Source: Amycolatopsis roodepoortensis
GTDB taxonomy: Bacteria > Actinomycetota > Actinomycetes > Mycobacteriales > Pseudonocardiaceae
Reading direction: 5' to 3'
Length of the DNA stretch: 64,000 nucleotides
Assembly: GCF_014873915.1 (NCBI RefSeq)
Contig: NZ_JADBEJ010000005.1
Coordinates: forward strand, 2,790,001-2,854,000
Shown here: in pieces, positions 37,736 to 63,248 of the stretch
How positions within the stretch are numbered: position 1 is the stretch's first letter
How the letters are laid out: the number at the start of each line of letters is the position of its first letter
Program-made: the position numbers and the translations under genes
The notes under the pieces: model-generated
Database searches by the model: none
What the model was told of the DNA's origin: nothing
What the model saw: the letters and a program-made list of their open reading frames with translations, nothing else

Positions 37736-37769
37736 CGCGGTGCCCCCCTCCTTTGCGCCATCGGTGAAT

Positions 37770-37788: not shown

Positions 37789-37840
37789 TGTGATACTGGG
37801 GGTTTAAGAAACGGGTTGTGGCCACCGTCACGCCGCTGGT

Positions 37841-38458: not shown

Positions 38459-38482
38459 GCCCCCATCTTGACATACTCTCCT

Positions 38483-38499
38483 GTCAGAATCATTCTGAC
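38483..38499. promoter_or_regulatory. 17-bp perfect palindrome in the TetR/SDR divergent promoter
   Basis: GTCAGAATCATTCTGAC has perfect 8-base arms around C. A half-site CTGTCAGAA recurs at 38509. TTGACA at 38468-38473 with CATTCT 17 bases later looks like a sigma70-type promoter for the plus-strand operon, overlapping the palindrome. Confidence 0.7.
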
Positions 38500-38547
38500 C
38501 GTGGTTCCTGTCAGAAGTCGGAGCGATCGGCAGCGGAGGCGATACCA

Positions 38548-46717: not shown

Positions 46718-49372
46718 GTGAACCGGGTGGCGAACGGCGTGGTGTCCTGGGTTGACCCGGAGCTGCGGGAGCTGGCGACAGCGGCCCCGATCACGCTGTT
46801 TCAGCGGTTGTCCAGCTCCCCGAAAGGGCTGACCGAGCAGGAGGCAACCCACCGGTCGGCCGTGTGCGCCGACAATCGGCTGCAGCGGCACGAAGGGTCG
46901 GTGTGGGTGGGGCGGGCGCGGTCCGCGGTGGCTAGCCCGTTCGTGGCCTTGCTGACCGGGCTGGGCGTGGTGTTCACCGTTCTCGGGGATCTGCGTGGTG
47001 CGGTCACCGTGAGCGTGATGGTGCTGCTCAGTGTGGTGCTGCGGTGGTGGCAGCAGGTTCGGTCCGATCAGGCGTTACGCGGCCTGCGGGCGCTGGTGAC
47101 CACGACGACTACGGTGCGCAGGCGGCCCGGTGACGGGCTCGCCCCGACCGAGCGGGAGGTGCCGCCAGAGGACCTGGTACCGGGTGACGTGATCGTGTTG
47201 GCGACGGGGGATCTGGTGCCGGCCGATGCGCGGGTGGTGGCGGCCAACGCGCTGCTGGTCGACCAGTCCGCGCTGTCCGGGGAGACCCTGCCGGTGCGCA
47301 AGGGGCCACCATCGCCTGTGCCCGATCGGCAACCCCGCGGCCGGACCGGTGGCGAGATCGCGGACCTGTCGTCGGTGTGCTTCGCCGGCACGTCGATCCT
47401 GAGCGGCACCGCGACCGCGGTGGTGATCACCACGGGGCCGCGCACCTACTTGGGGACGATGGCCGAGCAGGCCCGGCACGCCCGCCCTGAGAGCAGCTTC
47501 GACCGCGGCGTGCGCGCCGTGGGCTGGACGCTGGTGCGGTTCATGCTGGTGATGGCGCCGATCGTGCTGGCGGTCAACGGCACCGTCACCGGCGACTGGG
47601 CGCAGGCCGCGCTGTTCGCGGTCGCGGTCGCGGTCGGCTTGACCCCGGAAATGCTGCCCGTGATCGTCGCCGCCAACCTGGCCCGCGGCGCGGTGCACCT
47701 TTCCCGCCAGCAGGTGGTCATCACCCGGCTCAACGCCATCCAAGACCTGGCGGGCATGGACGTGCTGTGCGTGGACAAGACCGGCACACTCACCCAGGAC
47801 CGGGTGGCCTACGCGCACAGTATCGACCCGGCCGGACGGCCGGACGGCGAGGCCGCCGAGTACGCCTACCTGGCCGTGCATTTCCAGACCTGCCCGCACA
47901 ACCGGCTCGACGAAGCCATCATCGACCAGCTCGCCACCGACGACGCGCCGCTGGTCACCGACGCGGCGTTCACCAAGATCGACGAGATCCCCTTCGACCA
48001 CACCCGGCGGCGCGCCACGGTGGTGGTGCGACAGCAGCCCGGCGAGCACATCCTGATCACCAAGGGCGACCCCGACCAGATCCTGCCCCGCTGCACCCAC
48101 GCACGGCGGGCCGGCGAGGTAGTCGAGCTCAGCGAAGCAGATCGCCGCGAGGCTGGCGAGGTCGTGCGCGCTTACGCTGATCACGGCATGCGGATCTTGG
48201 CCGTCGCCGCCTGCGAGTATCCCGCCCGGCTGAGCGGCTACGACGAGGGTGACGAGCACGACCTTGTCCTTGTCGGGTTTGTCGGGTTCGTCGACCCGGT
48301 GCGCGACAGCGCGGCCGACGCGGCGCGGACCCTGGCCGACCACGGAGTCACGGTCAAGATCCTCACCGGTGACAACCGGCACGTCGCAGCGCAGGTGGCA
48401 GCCCAGGTCGGCATCCCCGTGGGCGAGATCGTGCTGGGGACGCAGGTTGAGGATGCCGACGACGCGCAGCTGCGTCGGCTCGTGGCGCGCACGACGGTCT
48501 TCGCCCAGGTCAATCCGGTACACAAGGCGCGGATCGTGACCGCGCTGCGGGACGCCGGGCACGCGGTTGGGTTCGTCGGGGACGGGGTCAACGACACAGT
48601 GGCGTTGCGGACGGCGGATGTGGGGATCGCTGCGGACACCGCCACCGATGTCGCCAAGGACGCCGCCGATCTGATCCTGCTGGACAAGGACCTCACGGTG
48701 CTGGCCCGCGCGATGGTGGAGGGTCGCCGCACGCTGGGCAACACCATGAAGTACGTCAAGATCACCGCGAGTTCGAACCTGGGCAACGTGCTCAGTGTCC
48801 TGGTGGCCAGCGCGACGCTACCGTTCCTGCCGATGCTGCCCATCCAGCTCATGGTGCAGAACCTGCTCTACGACGCGGCGCAACTGGCGCTGCCCTGGGA
48901 CCGCGTCGACCAGGACTATCTGCGCCGGCCACGGCGGTGGGACACCGGCGGCCTGACCCGATTCATGCTCACCTTCGGCCCGCTGAGTTCGCTGTTCGAC
49001 CTGGCCACGTTCGCCGTGCTGTGGTGGCTGCTGGACATCGACAGCCCCGCCGAGCAGGCGATGTTCCAGGCAGGTTGGTTCATCGAGGGACTGCTCTCGC
49101 AGGTCCTGATCGTGCTCGTGCTGCGCACCCGCCAGACCGGGATGCAGGTCTGGACGCCGTGCGGCGCACCGTCTCGGCCGGTGCTGGCCGCCGCAGTAGC
49201 GGTGGTACTCGTTGGCCTGCTGCTGCCGTGGTCGCAGCTTGCGGGCGCGCTGCGGATGGCGGCGCTGCCGCTGGGCTACTTCCCCTGGCTGCTGGCGATC
49301 TTGTTCAGCTATGTCGTGGCGGCCCAGGTCGTCAAGGCGAGGTACCTGCGTGGCGGGCGAGCGTGGTTGTGA
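46718..49372 (+). CDS. mgtA: Magnesium-translocating P-type ATPase
   Basis: 884 aa from GTG 46718 (GGAG seven bases upstream). Phosphorylation motif DKTGTLT (near residue 352), actuator SALSGETLPV, nucleotide domain ITKGDPDQIL, hinge TGDN (near 550) and GDGVNDTVAL (near 624) are all present, with the MgtA-type LSVLVASATLPFLPMLPIQL and VQNLLYDAAQLALPWD near the end. It imports Mg2+ using ATP. It is downstream of corA, with a 31-bp gap. Confidence 0.95.
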   Translation: MNRVANGVVSWVDPELRELATAAPITLFQRLSSSPKGLTEQEATHRSAVCADNRLQRHEGSVWVGRARSAVASPFVALLTGLGVVFTVLGDLRGAVTVSVMVLLSVVLRWWQQVRSDQALRGLRALVTTTTTVRRRPGDGLAPTEREVPPEDLVPGDVIVLATGDLVPADARVVAANALLVDQSALSGETLPVRKGPPSPVPDRQPRGRTGGEIADLSSVCFAGTSILSGTATAVVITTGPRTYLGTMAEQARHARPESSFDRGVRAVGWTLVRFMLVMAPIVLAVNGTVTGDWAQAALFAVAVAVGLTPEMLPVIVAANLARGAVHLSRQQVVITRLNAIQDLAGMDVLCVDKTGTLTQDRVAYAHSIDPAGRPDGEAAEYAYLAVHFQTCPHNRLDEAIIDQLATDDAPLVTDAAFTKIDEIPFDHTRRRATVVVRQQPGEHILITKGDPDQILPRCTHARRAGEVVELSEADRREAGEVVRAYADHGMRILAVAACEYPARLSGYDEGDEHDLVLVGFVGFVDPVRDSAADAARTLADHGVTVKILTGDNRHVAAQVAAQVGIPVGEIVLGTQVEDADDAQLRRLVARTTVFAQVNPVHKARIVTALRDAGHAVGFVGDGVNDTVALRTADVGIAADTATDVAKDAADLILLDKDLTVLARAMVEGRRTLGNTMKYVKITASSNLGNVLSVLVASATLPFLPMLPIQLMVQNLLYDAAQLALPWDRVDQDYLRRPRRWDTGGLTRFMLTFGPLSSLFDLATFAVLWWLLDIDSPAEQAMFQAGWFIEGLLSQVLIVLVLRTRQTGMQVWTPCGAPSRPVLAAAVAVVLVGLLLPWSQLAGALRMAALPLGYFPWLLAILFSYVVAAQVVKARYLRGGRAWL

Positions 49373-49423
49373 GCCGCATCGGCTGCGGTGGCGGCGTTCG
49401 GGCGGGGCGGCCAGGGGCTGATC

Positions 49424-49980
49424 ATGACGACGCGAGCGGAAGATGACTCGGGCACCGTCGAGATGGCGCTGCGTGTCGGCGCTGGCGTCGGGTTGGGCGC
49501 GCTGATCGGTTTCGAGCGGCAGTATCGGGCCCGGATGGTGGGGCTGCGGACCAATGCCCTGGTTGCTGTGGGGTGCCACGCTGTTCGTGCTGCTGTCCGC
49601 CTACGGCTTCGGGGATGTCAGCGGCGCCAGCTCTGCCGATCCCACGCGGGGTGCCGCCCAGATCGTCTCCGGCATCGGGGGTTCCTGGGTGCTGGGGTGA
49701 TCCTGCGGGACGGGCTGAGCGTGCGTGGGCTTGGACACCGCCGCCACGCTGTGGTGCTCAGCCTCGGCGGGGGCGCTGAACTGGGGCGGCATCCTGCTCA
49801 TGTCGCTGGGCGCCCAGTGGTACATCCTGTTCAACGTCATCGCCGAGGCCAGCGCGATCCCCAGCGACCTACGCGAAGCCGCCGCTGTGGTGGCGGAAAC
49901 TCATCCTGCGGGGAATCTTCCCCGGCTATTCACCGGCGGTATCCCGCCGCCCCTTCTCCGCTGAAAACGCCCAGCAGCAA
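49424..49980 (+). pseudogene. Decayed MgtC/SapB-family protein
   Basis: ATG 49424 begins MTTRAEDDSGTVEMALRVGA, GLGALIGFERQYRARMVGLR and NALVAVG, as in MgtC. The frame then changes (near 49567) to ATLFVLLSAYGFGDVSG, again near 49680 (GFLGAGVILRDGLSVRGL) and near 49733 (TAATLWCSASAGAL), and the end is degraded. MgtC proteins help adaptation to low Mg2+; this copy is broken in at least three places. The remaining 190 bp before the recombinase end hold nothing I recognise. Confidence 0.8.
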
Positions 49981-50170
49981 CTCGACACCCCGCCATCGCC
50001 TGGGGCCGCTACGCCGAACTGTTCGACTACGACACCGACACCGACCAGATCACCGCCGATCCCGCCGCTGGCCTCCACCCATCGATCTCCTCATGAGCAA
50101 GGACACGAAGCTCAGCGACTTCACCCGGTGACGCGACGTGGACACATAGTGGACACACATGGCGCCACGG

Positions 50171-51443
50171 TTACTCGGGTGCGACGCTTCGTTGTCCCTG
50201 GCGAAGGCGGCTGGCGACGTAGCTGGCGCGGTCGCCGCCGTTCTCCCGGTGCCAGGCGCTGGCGGTGGTGTCGGCCACACCGAGCAGGTCGGCGAGCATC
50301 TTCCAGTGGACGGAACCAACCAGTGACATCCAGGCGCCGTTGCGGGCGGTGCGGGCGCTGGGGACGCCCAGCTTGCGCAGCCGGGCCTGGAGGGTGGCCG
50401 ACGTCATCGGCCGGTCGGGGCGCAGCCCTGGGAACAGGTAGGGAGTCGGGCGGTGCCGCAGCGCGCCCGCGAGCGGGCGGCGGTTGTTGACGAGCTGCTG
50501 CAGGAGTACGGACAGCCGGGGGCGTAGCCACAAGGGGTCGCGGCCGAGTTGCAGGCCGAGGACGCCGGGCTCGTCCGGGTGGGCGAGGACGTCGTCGGTG
50601 GTGAGGTTGACCAGTCGCCAGCAGCTTTGCCCGTATTGCAGGACCAGGCAGCCGGCGGCACGATCGGTCAGCGCCTGGGTGTCGTCGGTCTCCAGCTTGA
50701 CGGCGAGCAGGACTCGGTCGGTGTCGCTCATGATCTCCCGGTTGCCGGTGTGGGCCGAGGTGCCGATCGCGACGTGGGCGGGGGCGAGGCCGTTGGTTGC
50801 GGCCCACAGCAGGAACGGGCGCGCGTAACGCTGGCGGGGCCGGTTGCGGATCAGCCAGCGGTCCATCACGGGTTGGGTGAGGGCGGCCAGGCTGATGCCG
50901 CGGGCGCGGAGGTAGCTCAGCAACAGGCGGGCGGCGTCGAGCTTCCGCCGGAGGTGTTCGCGCTGGTAGCGCGTGAAGCCGGAATCCCGCTCGGCGCGCT
51001 GGTGGGCCAGGGGCATCAGGTGCCACCGGACGTAGCGAGCCAGGATGGTCTTGTCCTGCTGGACGGTTACTCGGGCCAGCAGGGTCTGGACGTCGCGGGT
51101 GAGCTGGGCGAGTTCTTCCTCGCGGGGTTCGAGGATCTCGGCGAGTACCGCGCAGGTGCTGGACCGCGGTGGTCTGCCGGAGCTCGTCGAGTGCCTCGTG
51201 CGAGCAAGCCAGTTCGCCGGTGACCATGCGGCGGATGAGTTGTCCGCCGGGCCGGCGCAGATACAGGCACAGCGAGTACGGGTTGTCGTAGCTCTCCAGC
51301 AGCTCGGCCAGCGGCGCCAACCAGGCGGCCGGTTGCCCGTCGGGCTGGGTGAACAGCTCGACCAAGTCCCGACGCGCGATGCAGGATACGCAGTGCCCGC
51401 GCAGCAGACGGCCCATGGCCCCACAGGTCGGGCAGCGGTAGGA
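50171..51443 (-). pseudogene. Recombinase-like C-terminal part of the split zinc-ribbon recombinase gene
   Basis: Downstream half of a gene split by the Tn3-type transposon. From the junction it reads SYRCPTCGAMGRLLRGHCVS (14th zinc ribbon), then RDLVELFTQPDGQPAAWLAP. A two-base loss near 51150 (CTGCGCGGTACTC) shifts the frame; after it come LAEILEPREEELAQLTRDVQ, ARYVRWHLMPLAHQ, and a tyrosine-recombinase-like C-terminal part (GQSCWRLVNLTTDDVL, SVHWKMLADLLGVADTTASA). The H-x-x-R/Tyr site is weak: an HTH-like LADLLG...TASAWHREN replaces the usual GHSS box. The full gene would be about 875-880 residues. Confidence 0.85.
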
Positions 51444-51496
51444 GGGGGACCGCCGGGATACGGGAGAAACCTGCCAAGTAGTCGGGTAGTGCCTGG
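51444..51496 (+). repeat. Left terminal inverted repeat of the Tn3-type transposon
   Basis: GGGGGACCGCCGGGATACGG and the following 33 bases are repeated inverted at 58429-58481 with one change (A for G near base 37). The TAGGA duplication adjoins it at 51439-51443. Confidence 0.95.
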
Positions 51497-52369
51497 TCAG
51501 GCGTCGTTGTCGGCGAGGGCGCGGTAGAGCGAGGCAACTGAGGGGTGCCGGCCGGCGTTCTTGCCGGTCTTGATGGTCAGCTTCTTGACGATGTCGGGCA
51601 TCGGGGTGCCCTTGTCGCGCAGGGCGCGGGCGAAGAGCACGTCGTCTTCGTCGATCACCTTGGGTCGGCCGCCGTGGTTGCCGCGTGCGGCGGCGGCCTG
51701 CTGGCCTTCGAGGGTCTTTTCGCGGATGTAGTCGCGGTCGAGCTGGGCGGCGACGGCGAGCACGGCGAAGAGCATCGATCCCATACCGTGTGGGTCGTAG
51801 ATGCCGGTCAGCGGCCCACTCAGCAGCTCCAGCTGCACCCCGCCACCTTGCAGCTGGGCGGACAGCGTCATCAGCTCGGCGGCGTTGCGGGCAAGGCGTT
51901 TCATCTCGTGCACGGTCAGGATCACCGGCTGGTCCGGTGCCGCGATCTTGATCTCGTGGGCGAGGGTGAGTGCCTTCTCCAGCTCGGGGCGGATCTTGAT
52001 GCGGGTGCTGATCTTCTCGGAGAACACCCGCGTGCAGTGCGCGGCCGCGAGCGCGTCGAGCTGGCTTTGCAACTCCTGGGTGGCCGTCGAGCAGCGAGCG
52101 TAGCCGATCCGGATCGGCGCCCCGTTCGTCTCAGGCGCCGGCGCGGCGACCTCGGGGCACTGCGTCCACTTCTTGCCGGGCCCGCGATCGGCCGGGACGG
52201 GTACGGTGAGTTCGTCGCGTAGCGCGGGCACGAGGATGAAGCGCGCGGTGTGGTACTTCGCGGCGGTCTTCCCGGCGCGGGTGCGGCAGGCGCTGCCGGC
52301 GGGGACGTCGCATTGCGGGCAGGGGTGGCGTTCGACCGCGGCCGCTGCGTCGTCGGGTCCGAGTTGCAT
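51497..52369 (-). CDS. tnpR: Serine recombinase (transposon resolvase) with zinc-ribbon-like N-terminus
   Basis: 290 aa. The catalytic domain starts at about residue 86 with IGYARCSTATQELQSQLDAL, whose Ser is the nucleophile; then VFSEKISTRIKIRPEL, LTVHEMKRLARNAAELM and REKTLEGQQAAAARGNHGGRPKV, an HTH with VASLYRAL at the end. The first 60 residues carry CPQCDVPAGSACRTR, a zinc-ribbon/HC-x-type unit. It resolves cointegrates in Tn3 transposition. The stop is directly inside the left terminal repeat. An IS110 element begins ten bases upstream of its start and separates it from its own promoter/res region. Confidence 0.93.
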   Translation of the reverse strand: MQLGPDDAAAAVERHPCPQCDVPAGSACRTRAGKTAAKYHTARFILVPALRDELTVPVPADRGPGKKWTQCPEVAAPAPETNGAPIRIGYARCSTATQELQSQLDALAAAHCTRVFSEKISTRIKIRPELEKALTLAHEIKIAAPDQPVILTVHEMKRLARNAAELMTLSAQLQGGGVQLELLSGPLTGIYDPHGMGSMLFAVLAVAAQLDRDYIREKTLEGQQAAAARGNHGGRPKVIDEDDVLFARALRDKGTPMPDIVKKLTIKTGKNAGRHPSVASLYRALADNDA

Positions 52370-52422
52370 ACCTCCAGTCTCTCAGAACTCTGTCAAAACC
52401 GGGGGGTGTCCCTATGTGGTTG

Positions 52423-53628
52423 TCAAGCCGCAGCCGGGGCAGGAGTGGTCTCGGGGTGCCGGTAGTAGGTCTTGTTGCGGAGCATGGCGAACAGGACGTC
52501 GCAGCGGCGCCGCGCCAGGCAGATCAGCGCGGCGTTGTGCTTCTTCCCTTCATCGCGTTTTCGCTGGTAATAGGCCCTGCTGGTGGGGTCGGACAAGGCT
52601 GCGAACGCGGCGAGGAAGAACGCCCGCTTGAGTTTGCGGTTGCCGGTGCGGGCCGGGTGCTCGCCCTTGATGGAGGAGCCCGAGCTGCGGGTGACCGGGG
52701 CGATGCCGGCGTAGGCGGCCAGGTGGCCGGAGGACTTGAACGCCGTGGCGTCGCCGATCTCCAGCAGGATGCGGGCTGCGGTCCTGACCCCGACGCCGGG
52801 CATGGAGGTCAGGACCCCGGCAAGAGGGTGCGCATCGAGTATCCCTTCGACCTCGGTGGCGACCTGTTTGCGTTGCTGGAGAACGGTTTTCAGGCTGTCG
52901 GCCAGACGGGGCAGGACGGTGTCGGCCGCCGTTGTGCCCGGGACGACGACGGTCTGCTCGTCCAGCGCGGCCAGGATCGCGGTGACGAGTTTGTCGCCCA
53001 TGCGGGGCGCGTGCGCGGTGGCGATCGCGGTGAGCTTGCGGCGGCCGGCGGCGCGGATGCCGGTCGGGCCGCCGCAGCGGGACAGGATCTCCAGCACCGC
53101 CGGGTGACTGATCCTCGGGCCGATCGCGCGTTCCAGGGCGGGGTGGACGCCGGTGAGCAGGCCGCGGATGCGGTTGCCGATCCGGGTGGCCTCACCGGCC
53201 AGGTCGTCGTCGAACCCGACCAGCACGTCCAGCTCGGCCAGGGCGTCGTCGCCGACGTCGACCGGGCGCAGCGTGTGCGGCAGCGAGCGGGCGGCGTCGG
53301 CGATGACGAACGCGTCCCGGGCGTCGGTTTTCGCGCGGCCGGGGTAGAGGTCGGCGATGCGTCGCATGGCCAGGCCGGGCAGGTAGGCCACCCGGTGGCC
53401 GGCCGCGCGGGCCACCGCGACCGGCAGCGCGCCGATCGTCGCCGGTTGATCGACCACCACCAGCAACGGCCCGTGCGCGGCGAGCTTGTCGAACAGCGCC
53501 CGCAGCTTCGGTTCGCTGTTGGGCAGCGGCGCGTCGTGAAGCCGCTTGCCCGCCGGGTCCAGGCCGACGGCGTGGTGTTCGCCCTTGCCGACGTCCAGGC
53601 CGAGGAACACCTGGTAACCGCTGGTCAT
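52423..53628 (-). CDS. IS110-family transposase (DEDD recombinase)
   Basis: About 401 aa. The RuvC-like DEDD domain has VFLGLDVGKGEHHAVGLD (first Asp), VVVDQPATIGALPVAVAR, GRAKTDARDAFVIADAAR (later Asp residues); the C-terminal Tnp domain has LTSMPGVGVRTAARILLEIGD and AYAGIAPVTRSSGSS with the conserved Ser. It recombines DNA using a bridge RNA. ATG 53628 (MTSGYQVFLGL) is taken; an upstream ATG-type start at 53685 would add 19 residues. Confidence 0.93.
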   Translation of the reverse strand: MTSGYQVFLGLDVGKGEHHAVGLDPAGKRLHDAPLPNSEPKLRALFDKLAAHGPLLVVVDQPATIGALPVAVARAAGHRVAYLPGLAMRRIADLYPGRAKTDARDAFVIADAARSLPHTLRPVDVGDDALAELDVLVGFDDDLAGEATRIGNRIRGLLTGVHPALERAIGPRISHPAVLEILSRCGGPTGIRAAGRRKLTAIATAHAPRMGDKLVTAILAALDEQTVVVPGTTAADTVLPRLADSLKTVLQQRKQVATEVEGILDAHPLAGVLTSMPGVGVRTAARILLEIGDATAFKSSGHLAAYAGIAPVTRSSGSSIKGEHPARTGNRKLKRAFFLAAFAALSDPTSRAYYQRKRDEGKKHNAALICLARRRCDVLFAMLRNKTYYRHPETTPAPAAA

Positions 53629-53872
53629 CCGTCCTGCCGTTCGTTCGTCGCGGGTGGTCGCCGGTCGGGCATCGACGGCCGGCACCCACGTTACGACGAG
53701 ACCTGCCCGGCGGGCGGCCGTGTCCCTATCAGCGGTCCCTCGATGCCACCAGGTCCGGTGACACCACCCCCCGGATCATGCGCTCGACTGGGGGCGTCAG
53801 TCATGCCGGACCTGGCGACCACGACTCCTTGATCAGGAGCTACGAAAAAGGTAACGGGGGGGGTTCTGAGAG
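53629..53872 (-). ncRNA. Probable bridge-RNA region of the IS110 element
   Basis: In IS110-group elements the bridge RNA is encoded in the non-coding end upstream of the transposase, on the same strand. This segment has that position and size (about 240 bp) and contains several short complementary stretches (for example the CC/GG-rich runs near 53700-53800), but no loop assignment is attempted. From 53873 to 54152 no gene is visible. Confidence 0.4.
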
Positions 53873-54152
53873 GTTTTGTGCGAATCGCGACCTGCGGATC
53901 TTCGGGGCGGATCGGGCTGTTCGCAGAACTGTCACAACTGTTCATTTATGAGAGAAACTACAGGTCCCTTGCCGCGCGAAGCCTGACACCGGTGCCCTTC
54001 CAGGTATCCGATCGGATCCGTTAGGACATTTGCCGGTGGACATGGCTAGGCCGGGGAGAAGAGGTGGCTACGATCGCTTCATCAGGTGTCGCCAAGGTGT
54101 CATCCGTCTTCGGCGCCGGTGGACAGTGAAGAAACTCGTCGAAGGAGCAGTT

Positions 54153-55025
54153 ATGCCGGTGTCCGCACCCGATTTCGAATGGCTGTTCGCCCCAGGAACG
54201 CATCACACACTGTCCCGCGGCGATGTCGCCACCGTCCGGCTGCGGCAGGACGCCTCGCTGTGGCTGCCGTCCGGGCGGGTCGTCGCCGGCGAGCCGGCCA
54301 TGTTCTTGTCGATGTCCGGCTCCGAGGACAGGTTTGTCCAACAGGTGCCACCGGGCCGGTATCCGGTGGTGCTGGTGCTCGCCGTGTTCGGCGAACCGGA
54401 CGAGCAGGATGCGCAGGAGTGGGTCGCGGCGGCCCGGCTGATGATCCGGGACGAGCCAGCCGCCTCCTGGGAGATGGCGACGTGCGCGGGCCAGGATGCC
54501 GCCGAACTGGGCGACGACGAGTACTTCGGCTATCCGGTCGTCGGCGGCGCCGGCGGCTTCGTGGACGCGGCGAACATCGCGGCGCTGCGCGAGAACGACG
54601 ACTACAGCAACCAGCTGCTATCTAACCTGGACATCCACATCCTCGGCGAGACCGACCGCACCGCGCCCGCCACACTGGCCGACGACGGGGACCGGCCCCT
54701 TGCGGTGGCGTTTCCCTCTGGTAGCGGAGACGGGCACTATCCAACCTGGGTTGGGCGCACCGCCGACGGCGAGGTCGCTTGCTTCCTCACCGACTTTTGC
54801 ATCCTGACCGGGGATGGCGATAGCGAGAATGACGAGCCACCCTCAGGCAACGGTCCGATAAGCGTCCCGGAGGACTCGACCACGCCACCACGCCCGCCAT
54901 ATGCGGCCAGGCCACAGCCACTGTCTCCAGTGCAACGGTCTCCAGTGCGGCCCCCCACCGGGATCGCCAGTCCGGCGACTCCGAACATCCGGGCACGCCG
55001 CTCCCCGAGCAGCGATGAAACGTGA
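54153..55025 (+). CDS. DUF4241 protein (transposon cargo)
   Basis: 290 aa. DFEWLFAPGTHHTL, PSGRVVAGEPAMFLS, FVQQVPPGRYPVVLVLAVFG and WEMATCAGQDAAELGDDEYFGYPV, then AFPSGSGDGHYPTWVGRTAD and FLTDFCILTG match DUF4241. The C-terminal 65 residues are Pro/Ser-rich and disordered, longer than usual. DUF4241 occurs as single-domain proteins and as immunity-type partners of polymorphic toxins; its role here is unknown. ATG 54153 has GAAGGAG upstream. It is the only non-transposition gene of the transposon, and nothing else is seen in the following 200 bases. Confidence 0.85.
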   Translation: MPVSAPDFEWLFAPGTHHTLSRGDVATVRLRQDASLWLPSGRVVAGEPAMFLSMSGSEDRFVQQVPPGRYPVVLVLAVFGEPDEQDAQEWVAAARLMIRDEPAASWEMATCAGQDAAELGDDEYFGYPVVGGAGGFVDAANIAALRENDDYSNQLLSNLDIHILGETDRTAPATLADDGDRPLAVAFPSGSGDGHYPTWVGRTADGEVACFLTDFCILTGDGDSENDEPPSGNGPISVPEDSTTPPRPPYAARPQPLSPVQRSPVRPPTGIASPATPNIRARRSPSSDET

Positions 55026-55226
55026 AACCTCGTCGTGCGGGGTTGGGGCGTCGGATCGCGCCCTAAGTGGCGAGACGCATGCGCGTCGCGCGCGAGGCAG
55101 TTTCCCCCAGGGGGCGCTTCCCGGCGATTGGGGTTGCGCGCAGCCCGCGATGGAGTCGTTGTCGCAGTCGATCTCGACCATGACCGGAACGACGTAGCGG
55201 ACCCAACGGGTGGTCATCAGGATCCC

Positions 55227-58200
55227 TTACTTCGCGGTGACGCGCGCCCTTGTCCGGCGCGGCGCGGTGGCGTCGCCGGGGAACAGCGCCCCCGGCACCA
55301 GGTCCAGCGTAGTGACCGGCACCGCGTCAGGCGGCGACAGATCGAGCACCCAGTCCCCGAAGCGGCGGATGGTGTGGGTGATGTACGGGGAGATCGTGGC
55401 CAGATCGTCGGTGTCGATCGGGTGCCCGTCGGAGGCCAGCGCGTTCGCCGCGGCGGTGATGTCGCAGGCGTTGGAGTAGATCACGCAGTTCGCGAGCAGC
55501 TCGTTGAACTTGATGATCTTTTCCTGGTAGTCCGGGTCGTTACGCCCGACCGCCTCCCCGCCGAAACGCAGCCACGCGGAGAACCCGTGGAACGCCTCGG
55601 CCTTGTTGGTGATCGCGGTGATCTGCTCCCGCAACTGCGCGTCCGCGAGGAACCGCAGCAGCGTGATCGTGCGGATGACCCGGCCCAGCTCCCGGAACGC
55701 CCGGTACAGGCGGTTCTTCCGCGAGTTGTTGCCCAGCCGGCGCAGCAGCGTCATCGACGACAACCGGCCCTCGCTGATCGAGATCGCGGTGCGCAGCAGG
55801 TCCGTCCAATGCGTCTCGATCAGGCCCCAGTCGATCACGTTGTCGCCGAACAGCGAGTCGATGTGCGCGAACCCGGTGTCCGCGCTGGGCCGGTAGAAGT
55901 TCAGATCCGCCCAGTTGCGGATGCGCGGGAGCAGGTCGAAGCCGAGCAGCGCGGCGAGCCCGAAAACAGGCAGGGACTGGCCTTGGGTGTCGGCGTGGAT
56001 CGTGTCGGGCTGGATCTCCGAGTCGTTGCGCAGCAACCCTTCGATGATATAGACGGCCGCCCACACCCCGCACGGGATGAAGTGGGAGAACAGGGCGATG
56101 TAGGTGTCGGAGATGTGCCGGTAGGCGATCCCGCCGTAGCCGCCGTAGCGGATGTGGGACTCGGCGAGGATGTTGTTCTCCCACGTGTCCACCTGCGTGC
56201 CGTCCACCGCGACCACCCGGCCGTCGCCCCACATCCCGGCGACGTCGAGCTTCGCGAACTCGTTGATCACGTCGGTGGACGCGGCGTCGATCTTGGCGCA
56301 AGTGGTGTGCTTGTTCGCCGCGATCGACAGCTCGTGCGCGCTGACCTGGTCACGCATGTGCCGCGCGACCTGCGCGGGGCCGAGAAGCGTGCCGTTGGCG
56401 AACACGGTCAGGACGTAGCGGGCCATCGCGTCGCGGATCTTCGGGTCCGATCCCGACGCCGGCCCGAAGTGCCGCGGCCAGCCGACCAGGTGCGCGGTGC
56501 GGGCCAGGATGTCCAGCAGCCCGCGTTCGGGCAGCCGCTGGTGAATCGACTCCTCCAGCGCCAGCGCGGACGGGCGCCGGTCGGCACCCTTGCGGCGCCG
56601 CAGGACCGGGCGGCCGTCCTCGAAGGACAGGTCGGTGTTGTGCGGGAACCCGGCGTCCACCACCGCGGCGATATCGGTCAGCGCCGCCCGGTAGTGCGCC
56701 GTGAGCTCCTTCGGGTCCGAGGGAATCCCGGCCTGGCCGCAGAACTGCTCGGCCAGCGGGACGCACTCATCCCAGGACATCAGCTGCGCGTGCAGGTTGG
56801 CGTAGGAGTCGGCGCCGACCACCGCGATGTCCCCGGAGCGCAGCTCGGAGGCGAGGTAGGAGAACACGCACACCTCCAGGTGACGGCGCACCAGCTTGCC
56901 CGGCCGGTCCTTCACCACCAGGATCTTGCGCCACGCCTCAGTGACGAAGTCGATGTCGATCGCCACCGTCACCGCGTCCGCCCCACGCCCGACGGTCACC
57001 TTCTCCGGGACGTACTCGCCGGTGCGGCCCCGGATCGCGCGCAGGAACTCCACCGCGTCGGCCACGCTGTGATCCGCGCTGGTCGGCTCCAGGTCGAGGG
57101 TGTCGAGCAGGGTGAACAGCGCCGAGCGGTGGCTCTTGTAGAACTTCTCCAGCAACGGCAGGTAGTTGTTGCCGTGGTGCGCCGACACCACCTCATGCGC
57201 TGCCGAGAGCTGCTCCACCCCGCCCGCGTCGGCCAGCGTCTTGAGCAGCAGCCGCCCGGCCCGCTCGGCCACCGCGGCCGCGGGTTCCGGCGCGGTCGCG
57301 CCGTCGTTGTCTGGTGCGGTGGCCTCCCGGGCGCCGGCCAGGACATCACCGAACACGTCCAGCAGCCGCTCGGACTCGGCGCGGTGCTGCTCATGCAGCT
57401 CGACCAGCCGCTCCTTGCCCTTCTTGTGGATCACCGCCATCCGCTTGCAGAACATCGTCGCGACCTCGTCCCGGGCCGTGGTCCGGCACTCGTGGATCAG
57501 GCTCGCCAGCAACGTCCACCGCTTCGCCTCGCCGATATCCCGCATGTCGCCGACGTCGGTCACCCGCGCCTCCCCGGCGAAATGCGCGATCTTCGTCGCC
57601 GGGATGCCGTCGAGCCACTGCTCGGTCGCGCCGAGCTCGTCCAGCGCTTGCAGGTGGGCCAGGCGAAGCTTGAACTTTCCCACCGACGCCGCCTTCGCCG
57701 GCGTCTTCAGCCGGTCAAACTCGCTGCGCCGCGATGTCGGGTCCAGCCACAGCAGCCGCGCGAGCCGCCGCCGGTCCGCCGCGTCCAGCCGGGTCGCGAC
57801 CAGCCCGAACAACGCGGTGTTCGTCTCGGTGCGGCTCGCGGAGACCATCTTGTCCAGCGTGGTGAACCCCGGCAGCTCGCGCCGTGCCCGGACCAGCTCC
57901 TCCAGCGCGACGTTGATCAGGTCGGCCGGGTTGTCCTTCGTGGTGACCGCCTTGCGGATCGCTTTCTCGGCGATCGCGCGTGCCTCGGCGGGCTTGTAGA
58001 CCACATTCAGTCGGTCACGGACGTAGTCACGGTGGCGACACAACGTCCGATCCGACTCGTGCACCGCCAGGACGTCCTCGGCCAGGCCCAGCGCGGCCCG
58101 GACATGGTTGATCACCACCACCGGCACGTCAGCCAGCTTCGGGAAATGCCCCAGCCGCTGGTAGCACTTCAGCAGCACCACCAACGCCAGGAAGTTCGGC

Positions 58201-58325
58201 TCGCCCTGACTCCGCCCCCGAGCCCACTCAATCTCGCCGGCGACCGGCGTGAACGCCTCCGCCAGCTCACGGACCGACACCACCCGCTTGAACCGAGGAT
58301 AGGCGGTCCGATCGATCGAAGCCAC
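55227..58325 (-). CDS. tnpA: Tn3-family transposase (TnpA)
   Basis: 1032 aa, the usual size. N-terminal DUF4158-type DNA-binding part (RFKRVVSVRELAEAFTPVAG); C-terminal DDE domain with AVDGTQVDTWENNILAESH, IHADTQGQSLPVFGLAALLG (both Asp) and AITNKAEAFHGFSAWLRFGG (Glu), with PRIRNWADLNFYRP between. It is intact from start to stop and its start lies about 100 bases inside the right terminal repeat. It cuts and joins the terminal repeats and gives 5-bp duplications. Confidence 0.96.
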   Translation of the reverse strand: MASIDRTAYPRFKRVVSVRELAEAFTPVAGEIEWARGRSQGEPNFLALVVLLKCYQRLGHFPKLADVPVVVINHVRAALGLAEDVLAVHESDRTLCRHRDYVRDRLNVVYKPAEARAIAEKAIRKAVTTKDNPADLINVALEELVRARRELPGFTTLDKMVSASRTETNTALFGLVATRLDAADRRRLARLLWLDPTSRRSEFDRLKTPAKAASVGKFKLRLAHLQALDELGATEQWLDGIPATKIAHFAGEARVTDVGDMRDIGEAKRWTLLASLIHECRTTARDEVATMFCKRMAVIHKKGKERLVELHEQHRAESERLLDVFGDVLAGAREATAPDNDGATAPEPAAAVAERAGRLLLKTLADAGGVEQLSAAHEVVSAHHGNNYLPLLEKFYKSHRSALFTLLDTLDLEPTSADHSVADAVEFLRAIRGRTGEYVPEKVTVGRGADAVTVAIDIDFVTEAWRKILVVKDRPGKLVRRHLEVCVFSYLASELRSGDIAVVGADSYANLHAQLMSWDECVPLAEQFCGQAGIPSDPKELTAHYRAALTDIAAVVDAGFPHNTDLSFEDGRPVLRRRKGADRRPSALALEESIHQRLPERGLLDILARTAHLVGWPRHFGPASGSDPKIRDAMARYVLTVFANGTLLGPAQVARHMRDQVSAHELSIAANKHTTCAKIDAASTDVINEFAKLDVAGMWGDGRVVAVDGTQVDTWENNILAESHIRYGGYGGIAYRHISDTYIALFSHFIPCGVWAAVYIIEGLLRNDSEIQPDTIHADTQGQSLPVFGLAALLGFDLLPRIRNWADLNFYRPSADTGFAHIDSLFGDNVIDWGLIETHWTDLLRTAISISEGRLSSMTLLRRLGNNSRKNRLYRAFRELGRVIRTITLLRFLADAQLREQITAITNKAEAFHGFSAWLRFGGEAVGRNDPDYQEKIIKFNELLANCVIYSNACDITAAANALASDGHPIDTDDLATISPYITHTIRRFGDWVLDLSPPDAVPVTTLDLVPGALFPGDATAPRRTRARVTAK

Positions 58326-58428
58326 CCAGCACCCCAGGCCCAGCCAGCGGACGTAACCCAGCGCACCCTAACCAACACCCGCCGCACCCACGTCACACGG
58401 GCTCTCTAACGATCTCTAGCGCCCTCTA

Positions 58429-58481
58429 CCAGGCACTACCCGACCACTTGGCAGGTTTCTCCCGTATCCCGGCGGTCCCCC
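58429..58481 (-). repeat. Right terminal inverted repeat of the Tn3-type transposon
   Basis: Inverted copy of 51444-51496 with a single mismatch, followed by TAGGA at 58482-58486. The first base of the repeat completes a TAG stop codon for the interrupted zinc-ribbon gene. Confidence 0.95.
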
Positions 58482-59731
58482 TAGGAGAAGGTGACGCCCG
58501 CGCAGTCCGGGCACAACGGCCCGGCGGGCTCGCGGCGGAACACCGCGGCTAGTTGGCCGCAGCAGTGGCAGTGCTCGTGTGTGAGCCGTACCGCGTCCAC
58601 ACAGGACAGGCAGACCGGGCCCTCCGGCCAATGTCGTTCGGCGCGGGCGGTGGTTCCGCATCGGGTGCAGGGGACCTGGGCGGCCAGGTAGCACGGCACG
58701 CACCTGGCCACACCGTCCGTAGCTGGCACGGACATCGACGGTCGTTGCCCGCAGTCGGTACACGGCGGACCGGGCCGCACCACTTCCCAGCACGCTTTGC
58801 ACCACGGTCCATTATGGTCACGCGCGCACACCACCTTGTGGACGCCGCAGCCCGAGCACGGTTCGGCCAGCGTCTGGCGGCGGCAGCCGTCGCACCACGG
58901 TTCGCCGTCGGCGTCGCGGTAGGCCACCAACCTGGTCCGGCCGCAGTTGTGGCACGGCTGGCGTGGCCCAGCTTGCTGGGCGCAGGCCCGGCAAACCCCC
59001 GTGCTCAGAATCCCGACCTTGCGGGTCTTCCCGCAGCGCGGGCACAGCACCTCCGGCGCACGCCGGTTGTCGCACTTCTCGCACAGTGGCCCGTCCTCGA
59101 TGAGCCGAGCCGCAGGCTTGTCCTCGCCGCAGTCGATGCACCGGCGCAGCGGCCGTTGATGCCCGCGCTGCCAACACCGCCGGCACACCGGCCGTTTCTC
59201 GTCGTCGCGGACGGTGACCGGCGCCGTCTGGCCGCATCGTGAGCAGGGCTCGGCCAGATGCGTCCGGCGGCATCGTTCGCACCACGCTCCTTCCTCGGTG
59301 TGGGCGGCGGCCAGCACGACCTTGCCGCACATCCAGCAGGGCTCGCGGGGAACGGTCTTGCGGTGGCAGGTGTAGCAGACCCGGCCCTGCGGGCTGTTCT
59401 TCGTGGCCTTCATCGTCCGCCCGCATACCGAGCAGGGCAGCGGGACGCGCCGCTCGCGCTGCCAACACCGCGAACACACCGGCTGCCCGTAGCGCCGCGC
59501 GGCCACCCGCCCCGACCGACCGCACAGCGAGCACGGTTCGGCCCGGCGCTTTCCGTTGCAGTTCTGGCACCACGCCCCCTCCGCCGTACGTCCAATCGGA
59601 ACGGTCAGACGGCCACACCCGACACAGCTCTCCTTGTCCCGGCGGGCGTGGTAGCAGGTATGGCACAGCCCGCTAGCGACCAGAGATCGGTCGCATCCAC
59701 AGCTGGCGCAGACACCTCGCCCTTTCCCCAC
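58481..59731 (-). CDS. Zinc-ribbon array: N-terminal part of a split recombinase gene
   Basis: About 416 aa. It contains 26 CxxC motifs, which pair into 13 consecutive zinc ribbons of about 30 residues (for example CASCGCDRSLVASGLCHTC, CPRCGKTRKVGILSTGVCRA). The frame ends at a TAG made from TA of the target site and G of the transposon. Removal of the transposon joins PLCPDCAGVTFS in frame to YRCPTCGAMG, giving a 14th ribbon and then a recombinase domain. The start is uncertain: GTG 59731 is the first start after the HTH stop with no good ribosome site, so coupling to the HTH gene is likely. Such an array may bind DNA or RNA or proteins. Confidence 0.85.
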   Translation of the reverse strand: MGKGRGVCASCGCDRSLVASGLCHTCYHARRDKESCVGCGRLTVPIGRTAEGAWCQNCNGKRRAEPCSLCGRSGRVAARRYGQPVCSRCWQRERRVPLPCSVCGRTMKATKNSPQGRVCYTCHRKTVPREPCWMCGKVVLAAAHTEEGAWCERCRRTHLAEPCSRCGQTAPVTVRDDEKRPVCRRCWQRGHQRPLRRCIDCGEDKPAARLIEDGPLCEKCDNRRAPEVLCPRCGKTRKVGILSTGVCRACAQQAGPRQPCHNCGRTRLVAYRDADGEPWCDGCRRQTLAEPCSGCGVHKVVCARDHNGPWCKACWEVVRPGPPCTDCGQRPSMSVPATDGVARCVPCYLAAQVPCTRCGTTARAERHWPEGPVCLSCVDAVRLTHEHCHCCGQLAAVFRREPAGPLCPDCAGVTFS

Positions 59732-59751
59732 GTGCGTGACCCGGTGTCCGG

Positions 59752-60135
59752 TCAGCTCTCGGCGTCGAAGAAGTCCGCGGACAACAACGGCATGTCCGGC
59801 ACGGCCGGCCGCGGACCCCGGCGAGCCGGCTCCTCGGTGGCCGATTGCGGCTCGACCTCCACCGCCAGGTCCTCGAAGCGGCAGTCGAGGATCTTGCACA
59901 AGGCCAGGATCAACTCGATCGGCATCTTCGGCGGACGTTCGGTGCTGACGAGCCGGTAGATCGAGCTGCGGTCGAACTCGAAGCCGTACTTGCGCAACTC
60001 CGGGATCAGCTTCGTGGTGGTGTACCAGTTCTTGCGGACCGCCATCAGCTCACGCAGCCGCCACTCGTAGCGCGGCTGCCGGACCTGCACGTCGTCGTTC
60101 TGCTCGTCCGGTCCTTGCCGGGACACCGCGTTCAT
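59752..60135 (-). CDS. XRE-type helix-turn-helix protein of the recombinase module
   Basis: 127 aa. ELMAVRKNWYTTTKLIPELR, FEFDRSSIYRLVSTERPPKM and LALCKILDCRFEDLAVEVEP form a Cro/CI-like HTH (HTH_26 type). ATG 60135 overlaps the stop of the upstream tyrosine-recombinase remnant (ATGA-type overlap), and its stop is close to the zinc-ribbon gene, so the three were one operon. It probably regulates or assists the recombinases. Confidence 0.85.
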   Translation of the reverse strand: MNAVSRQGPDEQNDDVQVRQPRYEWRLRELMAVRKNWYTTTKLIPELRKYGFEFDRSSIYRLVSTERPPKMPIELILALCKILDCRFEDLAVEVEPQSATEEPARRGPRPAVPDMPLLSADFFDAES

Positions 60136-60408
60136 CGCACCCTCCTCCGGCGGCCAGCAGGCTCACCTGACGTGTGATCGCTGAAGTCGTCGTCCATCTC
60201 CGCCTCCGTCTCGGCCATCGCGAAGGCGCGTTGCAGCACGGCTTCCTCGGCACCGCGTCCAGGTGCTCGCGGACCTTTAGGTTCTTGAAGTCGCTGCTGA
60301 CCGCCGTGTAGATCGCCGTGGTCGCCGCGTGGGAATGACCGACCTGGTCAGTGACGAACTGCCCGTCATAGCCGGACTCGATCAGCCTGGTCACGTACGT
60401 TCTCCTTC
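60132..60408 (-). pseudogene. Truncated and frameshifted tyrosine recombinase
   Basis: Only the last part remains: RTYVTRLIESGYDGQFVTDQ, VGHSHAATTAIYTAVSSDFK (box with His and the nucleophile Tyr), and LKVREHLDA, then a frame change near 60258 to EEAVLQRAFAMAETEAEMDD and RRRRVR. The N-terminal 300 or so residues are missing; a sharp break near 60408 joins unrelated DNA. It preceded the HTH and zinc-ribbon recombinase genes. Confidence 0.75.
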
Positions 60409-60497
60409 TTCCCGCACTCGGCGTGTGCGGTGGGGTTCGTGTGGCGATTGAGCAGGGACGGCCTTTGTGACTTTGTTCGCCGCGCCAGCGACGGCTC

Positions 60498-61349
60498 TCA
60501 GGCTGCGCGTGGCCTGGTGTCGTGTGCGCGCTTGTTGGTGTGGCTGCTGATGCGGAGTTCGAGCCGCACGGTTTGGTTGTGGCAGCGGTACAAGGCGCGT
60601 GGGTCGAGCCAGTCGGCGTCCCGGTTGTCGTCCGGCGCGAGGCCGACGGCGGTGGGTATGCCGAGATCGGCATCGGTGTCGGTGAACAACGTGCCGGCGC
60701 CGAGCGTGATCTCCTCGCCGACCGTCGGCGTGACGGGTGCCAGGGACCGCGCTATGTCGCCACAGTGCTCGGAGCGACGTGTCTCGACCACGATGGCGAC
60801 GAGTCGTCCCGGTTGGCCGACGGGTGCGTTCTCGAACGAGACGTAGTCCTCGGCATCCGGACCGGTGAGCAGGAACACGGTGCCGTAGCGGTCGGACTGG
60901 CGTTCGAACCTCGGCCACCACAGTTGGCCCTGGCCGAGCTCGATCGTGGCTGTCTCCTCGGTGTGTCCCGCGGTTGCGGCTTGCTCGGCGGCGGTGATGA
61001 TCTCGGCCATGGACAGGTCGTTGCGGAACCGGTGCCCGATCTCGGCTTCCAGCTCCGCGTACTCGGCGGCCAGTTCCGGGCGTAGTTGTGCGGCGCGAAC
61101 CAGATCCGCGCGGCTGGCGAGCACACAGAGGGAGCACGACAGGCGGGTCATGCCCTGGTCGTAGGCCGGGTGGTACGGCACACCTGACGCATGGATGCGT
61201 TGCCATACCTGGGTTTCGGTCCAGTCGTGGATCGGAAGCCAGGTGTCGACAGTGCGCCGGCCGCTGCTGGCAGCCTCGCCACGACTCAGGCGAGCCTGCT
61301 GGCGCAGAGCAATACCGTTCCGCGTCGAGTTCTCACCTCTCGCGATCAC
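60498..61349 (-). CDS. N-terminally truncated PAPS-reductase-like protein
   Basis: 283 aa from GTG 61349. WLPIHDWTETQVWQRIHASG, YDQGMTRLSCSLCVLASRADL and AEIGHRFRNDLSMAEII match the C-terminal part of phosphoadenosine-phosphosulfate-reductase-type proteins carried by actinomycete plasmids and integrative elements. The N-terminal PP-loop (SGGKDS-type) is missing and a stop lies directly upstream of the start, so the protein is probably non-functional. The last 150 residues (LWWPRFERQSDRYGTVFLLT onwards) are an unrecognised extension. Confidence 0.65.
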   Translation of the reverse strand: MIARGENSTRNGIALRQQARLSRGEAASSGRRTVDTWLPIHDWTETQVWQRIHASGVPYHPAYDQGMTRLSCSLCVLASRADLVRAAQLRPELAAEYAELEAEIGHRFRNDLSMAEIITAAEQAATAGHTEETATIELGQGQLWWPRFERQSDRYGTVFLLTGPDAEDYVSFENAPVGQPGRLVAIVVETRRSEHCGDIARSLAPVTPTVGEEITLGAGTLFTDTDADLGIPTAVGLAPDDNRDADWLDPRALYRCHNQTVRLELRISSHTNKRAHDTRPRAA

Positions 61350-61445
61350 TCATGGTGACTGTCGCTGCCGGGTGAAACTGACCCGGTCTGACCAACCGCT
61401 CGGGTCCAGGACGTGGGTAAGCGGGTCAGTGACCGAGGGGCGTGG

Positions 61446-62126
61446 TCAGGGATTGCGTGCCGAGGGGGGCTCGCCGCTGATGGCGCGCCAGGCCGCGTCG
61501 GAATCAACGGTGTCGGCGAGGTCGTGGTTGGTGAGTACGGCGAGCGCGTCGATGGCTGTCAGCCAGTCGCGGCTACGCCGGTGCACCTCGTCGCTGGGGT
61601 CGTATCGGTTCAGGACGACTAGCACCTCGTGTCCGGTGAGGGCTCGCGCGGCGAGGCGCACCTGGGACACAACTCCTAGGACAGGCTCGGTGACCAGTAG
61701 CACGAGGTCCGGTCTCACCCGCTGCGCCAGTGAGAGGGTGTCGCCGTCATGGGCGATTGGTGAGCACAGCCCGCCTGCGCCCTCGACGAAGCCGATGGCG
61801 ACGTCTGAGGGCCAGTCGAGTTCGGCGACGAGGTCGTCGAGCAGGATCGGAGCCAGTTGTAGGGTGTCGGCGGCCATCGGTGGCGCGAGGGGTACCGGGT
61901 ACCACCGGTGTGGCGGGCACACCGTGTCGGCGGGCGTGTCAGTTGCCTCGCCGAGCACGGCGGCGTCGGTCGCGGTATCACCGGGTGTGAACGACTGCGC
62001 CGGTTTGCGGGCCGCGACCTCGATGCCAAATGCTCGCAATCGTCGCGACAAGGCGGCGGTCACCCAGGTCTTGCCGACCTCGGTGCCGGTGCCGGTGACC
62101 AGGATGAGTCGGCTAGGTCGGGTCAT
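61446..62126 (-). CDS. bioD: Dethiobiotin synthetase-like ATPase
   Basis: 226 aa. P-loop LVTGTGTEVGKTWVTAALSR, then RKPAQSFTP, VEGAGGLCSPIAHDGDTLSL and VVLNRYDPSDE fit BioD, which closes the ureido ring of dethiobiotin. ATG 62126 overlaps the stop of a 34-codon frame, itself overlapping the fabI-like stop, so the three are coupled. No bioA, bioB or bioF gene is in the window, so a role in another pathway is possible. Confidence 0.88.
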   Translation of the reverse strand: MTRPSRLILVTGTGTEVGKTWVTAALSRRLRAFGIEVAARKPAQSFTPGDTATDAAVLGEATDTPADTVCPPHRWYPVPLAPPMAADTLQLAPILLDDLVAELDWPSDVAIGFVEGAGGLCSPIAHDGDTLSLAQRVRPDLVLLVTEPVLGVVSQVRLAARALTGHEVLVVLNRYDPSDEVHRRSRDWLTAIDALAVLTNHDLADTVDSDAAWRAISGEPPSARNP

Positions 62127-62227
62127 GGAGCGCCCACCGGGTCAACCAGCCGAGATCTTGCCCAGTCTGCGCCAGGGCACCTGCCCTGATCAGTGTGGAG
62201 GTGTTGGATGTCCTCGTGGCCCATCAT
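62123..62227 (-). CDS. 34-aa coupling ORF between the enoyl reductase and BioD genes
   Basis: ATG 62227 overlaps the upstream stop by four bases (ATGA) and the TGA at 62123-62125 overlaps the BioD ATG in the same way. The peptide MMGHEDIQHLHTDQGRCPGA and 14 more residues has no known relative. It may be a coupling spacer that carries ribosomes to bioD, or a small protein. Confidence 0.35.
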   Translation of the reverse strand: MMGHEDIQHLHTDQGRCPGADWARSRLVDPVGAP

Positions 62228-63009
62228 GATCCCTGTTGGCGCAGGGGCGCGGCCATGGCGTGGTAGCCGCCGTCGACGTGGAGGATCTCGCCGGTGATAG
62301 CGCGGGCGAGGTCGGAGAACAGGAAGCAGACGGCGTCGGCCACCGGGGTCGAGTCGGCTGGGTCCCACCGCAAGGGCGAACGGGTTGCCCAGGCGTCGAG
62401 CAGGGCTTCGAAGCCGGGGATGCCGGTGGCCGCCCGGGTATGGATCGGCCCGGCCGCGACGAGGTTGACCCGGATTCCGGCAGGCCCGAGGTCGCGTGCG
62501 AGGTACCGGTTGAGCGACTCCAGTCCGGCTTTGCAGACGCCCATCCAGTTGTAGACCGGCCACGCGGCGCTGGCGTCGAAGTCGAGCCCGACCAGGCTGG
62601 CGCCGGAGGGTGGGGCGAGCCGGTTCACCGCCGCGGCGAGCGCGGCGAGGGATACGGTGCTGGTCTGGAACGCCAGTCCGATCCCTTCGGGGCGGGCGTT
62701 GAGTAGGGGGCCTTCCAGGGCGTCGGCGGGTGCGAAGGCGATGGCGTGCAGGGCGCCGTCGAGTCTCTCCCACCGCTCAGCGATCGTTGCGGTGAGCCGG
62801 GCGGTGTCGTGGGAGGCAGTGGCGTCGAAGGGGATGACGTCGATGTCGCCGGTGAGCTGCGCTGCCGCCGCACGGGCCCGATCGAGATCGCGGGGGAGCC
62901 CGGTGAGCAGCACCTCGGCGCCGAGTTGTTGGGCGCGGCGGGCGACGGCGAAGGCGATGCTGTCGGTGGTGACGACCCCGGTCACCAGGATGTGCTTGCC
63001 GTCCAACAC
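62224..63009 (-). CDS. fabI: InhA-like enoyl-[acyl-carrier-protein] reductase
   Basis: 261 aa from GTG 63009 (AAGGAG seven bases upstream). HILVTGVVTTDSIAFAVARR, IAFAPADALEGPLLNARPEG, and YNWMGVCKAGLESLNRYLAR with catalytic Tyr and Lys (Y-x6-K) match the mycobacterial-type NADH enoyl-ACP reductase; ILHVDGGYHAM ends it. It reduces the enoyl intermediate of fatty-acid elongation. The gene could be a second, pathway-linked copy. The 240 bp up to the IlvD stop hold a possible 79-aa frame (62982-63221), which I do not support. Confidence 0.9.
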   Translation of the reverse strand: MLDGKHILVTGVVTTDSIAFAVARRAQQLGAEVLLTGLPRDLDRARAAAAQLTGDIDVIPFDATASHDTARLTATIAERWERLDGALHAIAFAPADALEGPLLNARPEGIGLAFQTSTVSLAALAAAVNRLAPPSGASLVGLDFDASAAWPVYNWMGVCKAGLESLNRYLARDLGPAGIRVNLVAAGPIHTRAATGIPGFEALLDAWATRSPLRWDPADSTPVADAVCFLFSDLARAITGEILHVDGGYHAMAAPLRQQGS

Positions 63010-63248
63010 AGTGCGGCTCCTTCGCGGGGGTTGGTGTGTGCGGCCCGGCAGGCGTGGGTCGTGACCGCTTGGTGGACGTCGATGGCCCGGCGGATGCAGG
63101 GTCCGGTCGTGGCGGTGATTCCTTCGACAGGGCGGTCGGCGCTGGCGGCACCGCCGATGCGCCCCGCAGGCCGTGCCGCCGGCACGGCGATGGGAGAAAA
63201 GCCGGATCGCTCGCGTGACATGATGGTGTTTGCGTCGGGTGGGGCTGC

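Follow-up and report, generated by a model that had tools for sequence, protein, structure and literature searches.

We analysed a 64,000-nucleotide stretch of the Amycolatopsis roodepoortensis genome (contig NZ_JADBEJ010000005.1, positions 2,790,001 to 2,854,000; hereafter the window, whose own numbering is used throughout), in which a Tn3-family transposon interrupts a gene encoding an array of zinc ribbons followed by a tyrosine-recombinase-like domain. The transposon occupies positions 51444–58481 (7,038 bp) and is flanked directly by two copies of the 5-bp target-site duplication TAGGA, at 51439–51443 and 58482–58486. A preliminary description of this DNA had reported these duplications and inverted ends of 53 bp differing at one base; the single mismatch stands, but the left end (51444–51497, plus strand) and the right end (58428–58481, minus strand) match over 54 bp. 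Because a 5-mer is repeated at the same spacing at only 99 of 56,952 window positions, a duplication of this type would arise by chance with a probability of about 0.2%; together with the 54-bp ends, it is not a chance feature. The interrupted gene lies on the minus strand in three pieces. Its 5′ part (58481–59731; Pfam DZR_2, 5.3e-07) encodes 13 zinc ribbons, counted from 26 CxxC motifs, and now ends, as a protein of 416 amino acids, at a TAG codon formed at the insertion joint. On the other side of the transposon, a stranded part (51148–51443) encodes ribbon 14 and a linker, in the frame of the array if the flanks are joined. The 3′ part (50171–51160) encodes the recombinase-like domain, in which the catalytic motif is not recognisable, and lies in a different frame from ribbon 14. 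The joined flanks read GVTFSYRCPTCG and continue without a stop through ribbon 14 and the linker, so that the earlier account of the ribbon count, of the origin of the stop codon and of the open reading across the joint agrees with what we see.

Had one large gene been split by the transposon, as the preliminary description proposed? We searched the DNA of 390 genomes of the family, scoring two candidates per genome; 13 of them gave a match to the array (E <= 1e-50) and 18 a match to the recombinase part (E <= 1e-30). Among the 13 array-carrying genomes, eight contain the transposon at the joint (seven with both ends, one partial), five contain empty-site copies and one contains an insertion sequence (IS)-like element; Prauserella endophytica (G285), which holds one occupied and one empty-site copy, is counted in both states. 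The seven empty-site copies are distributed over five related genomes (two each in G189 and G286, one each in G161, G285 and G145) and show 78–93% DNA identity. In all seven, a single TCCTA (read on the gene strand) joins the array to the recombinase part, and four (G161, both copies of G189, and G145, whose start position was set by script) are open over 838–841 codons, with 28 CxxC motifs, that is, 14 zinc ribbons and then the tyrosine-recombinase-like domain. A search for the uninterrupted protein, which the preliminary description had suggested, is answered by these four open alleles of about 840 codons, and the proposed split of one gene is borne out. In a further copy (G286 C36), the array is matched in part and the frame stays open from that match on. 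On the occupied side, both joints are identical to those of the window in the assemblies of Prauserella muralis, P. endophytica, Amycolatopsis marina and A. palatopharyngis.

More distant relatives point the same way. In Streptomyces sp. NBC_01766 (L126), a single frame without an internal stop (758 codons, including the terminal stop) spans all three pieces in order, which upholds the earlier assignment of ribbon 14 and the recombinase part to the array gene. Residues 100–416 of the array are 41% identical to residues 17–331 of this protein, ribbon 14 with the linker is 51% identical to residues 331–426, and the recombinase part is 52% identical to residues 435–757; with 22 CxxC motifs in total, the Streptomyces protein has fewer ribbons than the window gene. 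In Embleya sp. NBC_00896, the pieces also follow one another in one frame (63%, 66% and 64% identity); a single internal stop is present, and the linker is shorter. At 22 of 36 more distant loci, at least five CxxC motifs share a stop-free frame with the recombinase part; the remaining 14 include two relic-like loci (L033 and L034) and four that are frame-split (L037, L038, L046 and L061). Judged from these comparisons, the array and recombinase halves were once one gene. Moreover, in four pairs of open alleles the ratio of nonsynonymous to synonymous substitution rates (dN/dS) is 0.20–0.30 for the array and 0.16–0.21 for the rest, values that indicate purifying selection on the array as well as on the remainder of the gene.

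The window gene carries a second lesion, a change of frame at 51147–51148 (minus strand), about 300 bases downstream of the joint in the direction of the gene. Alignment of the window with each of the seven empty-site copies shows a single gap at 51147, where the window has 8 nt fewer. The six other aligned occupied copies do not differ from the window at this position, by which a sequencing error is ruled out. Insertion and deficit are found together in all seven copies with both transposon ends, and the deficit in none of the seven empty-site copies. Because of it, a frame running through the joined flanks would miss the recombinase part, and the predicted product of an excision would consist of the array, ribbon 14, the linker and a frame-shifted tail. 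The claim that excision restores the frame therefore survives at the joint, as far as the end of the linker, and fails beyond it; likewise, the fusion of 58482–59731 with 50171–51438 that had been put forward is not a single frame, the second stretch being 1,268 nt long and the recombinase part lying in another frame.

The occupied copies resemble one another closely. The transposon with both ends at this joint is present in A. marina (G011), A. palatopharyngis (G165), P. muralis (G288), P. endophytica, G372 and G144 as well as in the window genome; by match positions it measures 7,038–7,042 bp in six of the seven and 6,966 bp in G144, which is without a short stretch near 53866–53940. An eighth genome (G355) contains the array and 2.2 kb of one transposon end at the same joint. 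A near-identical array is also present in G328 (L171), where an IS-like element lies exactly at the joint and the recombinase part is gone; this element has GGGCGTGTTGC ends with TA on both sides. The near-identity extends well beyond the gene. The window genome shares 37,261 bp at 99.992% with A. marina (45395–82655, beyond the end of the window), to which 20000–39900 of the window is also 100% identical in three pieces, and it shares 50136–82585 (with a short gap) with G144 and 51059–82585 with G372, both similarities resuming at 100462. Near-identical DNA around the transposon occurs in Prauserella and other species too, and its natural reading would be a recent horizontal transfer of large extent. 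The end of the G144 similarity at 50136 was considered as an island border and rejected: by eye, it reflects an IS256-like insertion in G144 and not an attachment site.

The split gene is the third gene of a trio that comprises a tyrosine integrase, an HTH_26 protein and the protein with the zinc-ribbon array and degenerate recombinase domain. In the window, the second gene (59752–60135, minus strand) encodes an HTH_26 (Cro/C1-type) protein of 127 amino acids (Pfam, 1.3e-06), and all that is left of the first is a C-terminal remnant at 60230–60430 on the same strand (Pfam Phage_integrase, 6.9e-07, profile positions 133–169 of 172). When a profile of the trio integrases was run against 58000–64000, positions 320–371 of 382 were matched and nothing else, and DNA homology to G161 in the integrase region stops at about 60393; the neighbouring integrase is truncated to its tail. 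A gene by eye similar to the phosphoadenosine phosphosulfate (PAPS) reductase family (60498–61349) adjoins the remnant; by eye, the trios of G161, G189 and G286 are also preceded by genes of similar appearance, and one is annotated near a Tn554-like pair of plasmid pBD2. At 35 of 49 loci, the recombinase-like gene is preceded on its own strand by both an integrase gene and an HTH_26-like gene, the integrase frame coming first at 34 of these (at L060 the frames overlap and the order is not resolved); two loci have the HTH gene only, and 12, some of them cut by contig ends, have neither. The two profiles for this count derive from loci that are themselves counted, and some of the loci nearly duplicate one another, so that the cases are not independent. 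The trio is recurrent in actinomycetes. Plasmid annotations show its order at L122, L123 and L124, and at L126 and L127 with the array part unannotated or misannotated; the array gene is called a hypothetical protein or recombinase XerD (L122, L124 and L126), and the annotated start of L126 leaves out most of the array. In a set of 72,556 plasmid records, an array-recombinase protein used as query matches 249, and in 52 of these the match spans 80% or more of the protein; the usual names among the matches listed are hypothetical protein, site-specific integrase or recombinase XerD. In most pairs of copies in different surroundings, homology runs out no more than a few bases from the point where the array gene stops (2524–2531 from the array start), which suggests that one border of the element lies there. 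In one weaker pair it ends at 2496, and the two copies of G189 and the copy G286 C36 share sequence beyond the stop codon. The number of ribbons, taken as half of the CxxC count, varies from about 3 to 14 across the relatives.

What remains of the recombinase in the third protein? In the partner integrases, the R, HxxR, GH and Y residues are invariant in eight of eight aligned sequences. In the array protein, alignments by eye show no recognisable counterpart of these motifs; the only constant or almost constant residues are one arginine and a displaced tyrosine. A predicted model of the recombinase-like domain is of fair quality (predicted local distance difference test, pLDDT, 80; predicted template modelling score, pTM, 0.57), and a Foldseek search with it returned 30 matches at E <= 0.001, all of them tyrosine recombinases, including XerA, Tn1549 Int, lambda Int and Cre, with probability 1.00 and template modelling (TM) scores of 0.3–0.46. 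Searches at the sequence level gave little: the profile of the domain reached a best E of 0.15 against the Protein Data Bank (PDB), and Pfam, which placed DZR_2 above its cut-off in the window array, gave four relatives nothing better than matches below it (Phage_integrase 0.0007, the best integrase match; DZR_2 0.00024). No family was assigned by NCBIfam to the window recombinase part, the window array, L035, L041 or L042, or by PHROGs to the two window parts, L036 or L057.

How might the locus have reached its present state? In the explanation that we favour, with a probability of roughly 0.92, a Tn3-family transposon landed in the third gene of a trio, duplicated 5 bp of its target and created a stop codon, so that the protein now ends after ribbon 13. 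The same gene has lost 8 nt from the linker before the recombinase-like domain, the integrase has been reduced to its tail, and the broken module would then have been carried between species on large pieces of near-identical DNA. We take this to be ordinary Tn3-type transposition with no regulated excision switch. In intact relatives, the gene product would probably act as an accessory DNA-binding partner of the integrase that keeps the catalytic motif, the ribbons and the degenerate domain both contacting DNA.

Several observations weigh against this explanation. In two of the seven empty-site copies (G286 C24 and G285 C16), the array has its own break of frame; empty copies thus decay as well. 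For the distant pair G161 and L126, dN/dS rises to 0.53 and 0.49, at dS values of 1.1 and 0.9. The insertion and the deletion may have come in either order. The apparent loss of the catalytic residues was read from alignments by eye and from fold matches with TM scores of 0.3–0.46, and comparison of the recombinase-like domain with the partner integrases by hhalign was not significant (probability 0.6%, E 0.092).

We weighed three other explanations. In the first, which we regard as improbable, the truncated array of 416 amino acids is now a gene of its own, kept for DNA binding. The array is indeed open to codon 416 in the occupied copies of the window, G372, G165, G355 and G144 and also in G328, and that of G355 shows one change in 1,245 bases although the adjoining part of the transposon has diverged to 96%. 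However, this near-identity mostly reflects recent common descent, the changes are too few for selection to be measured, and of the integrase that such a protein would serve, the window retains only the tail. In the second, transposon excision would reconstitute the gene when needed, as a reversible switch. The open reading of the joined flanks into ribbon 14 and the presence of both an occupied and an empty-site copy in P. endophytica would fit such a switch, but the 8-nt deficit bars the joined frame from the recombinase part. Moreover, the empty-site copy of P. endophytica is only 90–92% identical to the window sequence, which its occupied copy matches, and so is no recent excision product; none of the nine genomes with a near-identical array is empty (eight have the transposon and one the IS-like element); and Tn3 elements generally move replicatively. 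A switch is therefore very unlikely; what we see resembles a gene that is dead and has been spread by horizontal transfer. The third, a programmed ribosomal frameshift at 51147 that would leave the gene functional, can be dismissed: although the array and recombinase part are in different frames at L037, L038, L046 and L061, by eye the break is near the last ribbon in three of these four and lies beyond it in the other, never at the place seen in the window, while ribbons and recombinase part share one frame at 22 of the 36 distant loci and the four open close alleles, 8 nt longer, are unshifted.

The insertion itself is everyday transposon biology and the interrupted family is of greater interest, the exact empty sites of the insertion providing a clean example of a mobile gene that was killed and then spread across species. 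If the ribbons read DNA, a new type of integrase accessory factor becomes testable. We can go one step further, to an idea that we consider rather doubtful: the ribbon array of intact elements, with about 3 to 14 units, might be a modular DNA reader whose length differs between elements and which, together with the degenerate domain, directs the integrase to a target or to an element end. If true, bacteria would have a multi-ribbon factor that targets site-specific recombination.

Among published elements, the closest class that we found is that of the Tn554-related elements of actinobacteria, which encode two tyrosine recombinases, one long and one short (Van Houdt et al. 2012, PMC3414803). 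Like the trio, these elements combine a short tyrosine recombinase with a recombinase-related protein of much greater length and, in most cases, a small third protein, and they occur on actinobacterial plasmids and chromosomes. We compared three such modules in positions 1–200000 of pBD2 with three array-recombinase proteins. The long pBD2 proteins contain one CxxC motif each, against 28, 22 and 18 in the array proteins, and between the two groups there was no significant similarity, the best BLASTP E being 0.96 and the best E of the recombinase-domain profiles 0.011. One of these profiles also picked up a short recombinase of pBD2 (E 2.4e-05 among 17 proteins), which would fit a remote link with tyrosine recombinases generally. 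The small protein belongs to DUF6262 in two of the three pBD2 modules and is absent from the third, compared with HTH_26 in the trio, and DUF6262 and HTH_26 proteins gave a best BLASTP E of 4.6. Placement of the trio in the published Tn554-like class was therefore rejected, neither a homologous long recombinase nor a TnpC-related third protein having been found in the pBD2 comparison; by sequence, the trio is distinct from the actinobacterial Tn554-like pairs compared. The elements named GInts and SEs combine catalytic tyrosine recombinases with a relative in which the catalytic motif is missing wholly or in part (GinC, Tfp), in an operon that, like the trio, also has a small extra protein (PMC5385486, PMC10214605). 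Their descriptions set them apart from the trio, with its one integrase, HTH_26 protein and ribbon-array protein, and neither main text contains the word zinc. The literature on zinc ribbons and tyrosine recombinases yielded accounts of serine integrases, in which single zinc ribbons are known and DNA binding is thought likely (PMC4701971), and of jumbo-phage transcription factors (PMC7824862). No description of a ribbon-array trio was found in a limited search of the literature, which took in few subscription papers.

The transposon itself encodes, from left to right, four proteins. A serine resolvase of 290 amino acids (51497–52369, minus strand; Pfam Resolvase, 3.5e-26) has a phage-type zinc-binding domain at its N terminus (Phage_zn_bind_8, 7.8e-11), a feature that is to our knowledge unusual in a Tn3 resolvase. 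A nested IS110-family transposase of 420 amino acids (52423–53685, minus strand; Pfam DEDD_Tnp_IS110, 1e-47; Transposase_20, 1.9e-23) lies between the resolvase gene and a cargo gene for a DUF4241 protein (54153–55025, plus strand; Pfam, 9.2e-38 on 54150–55022), whose start codon was placed by eye. The Tn3-family transposase, of 1032 amino acids (55227–58325, minus strand; Pfam DDE_Tnp_Tn3, 4.2e-125), scores 624.7 bits with NCBIfam transpos_Tn3, above the curated cut-off of 500 bits. The element thus agrees with Tn3-family replicative transposons in its transposase, its serine resolvase, its inverted ends, which begin with a run of G, and its 5-bp target duplication. It differs from them in the zinc domain of the resolvase, the IS110 element beside the resolvase gene, the DUF4241 cargo and the 54-bp ends, the usual length of a Tn3-family end being 38 bp. 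When the left end was used as a query against the genome to which the window belongs, only the two ends of the present copy were returned. An Rfam scan of 49000–62000 gave no match, and a tRNA scan of the window found none. By eye, similar TTCTGAGAG-like motifs flank the IS110 element on both sides (52350–52425 and 53830–53960), forming a candidate res region into which the IS110 element may have inserted. Among otherwise nearly identical copies of the transposon, the runs of G beside the IS110 element vary in length.

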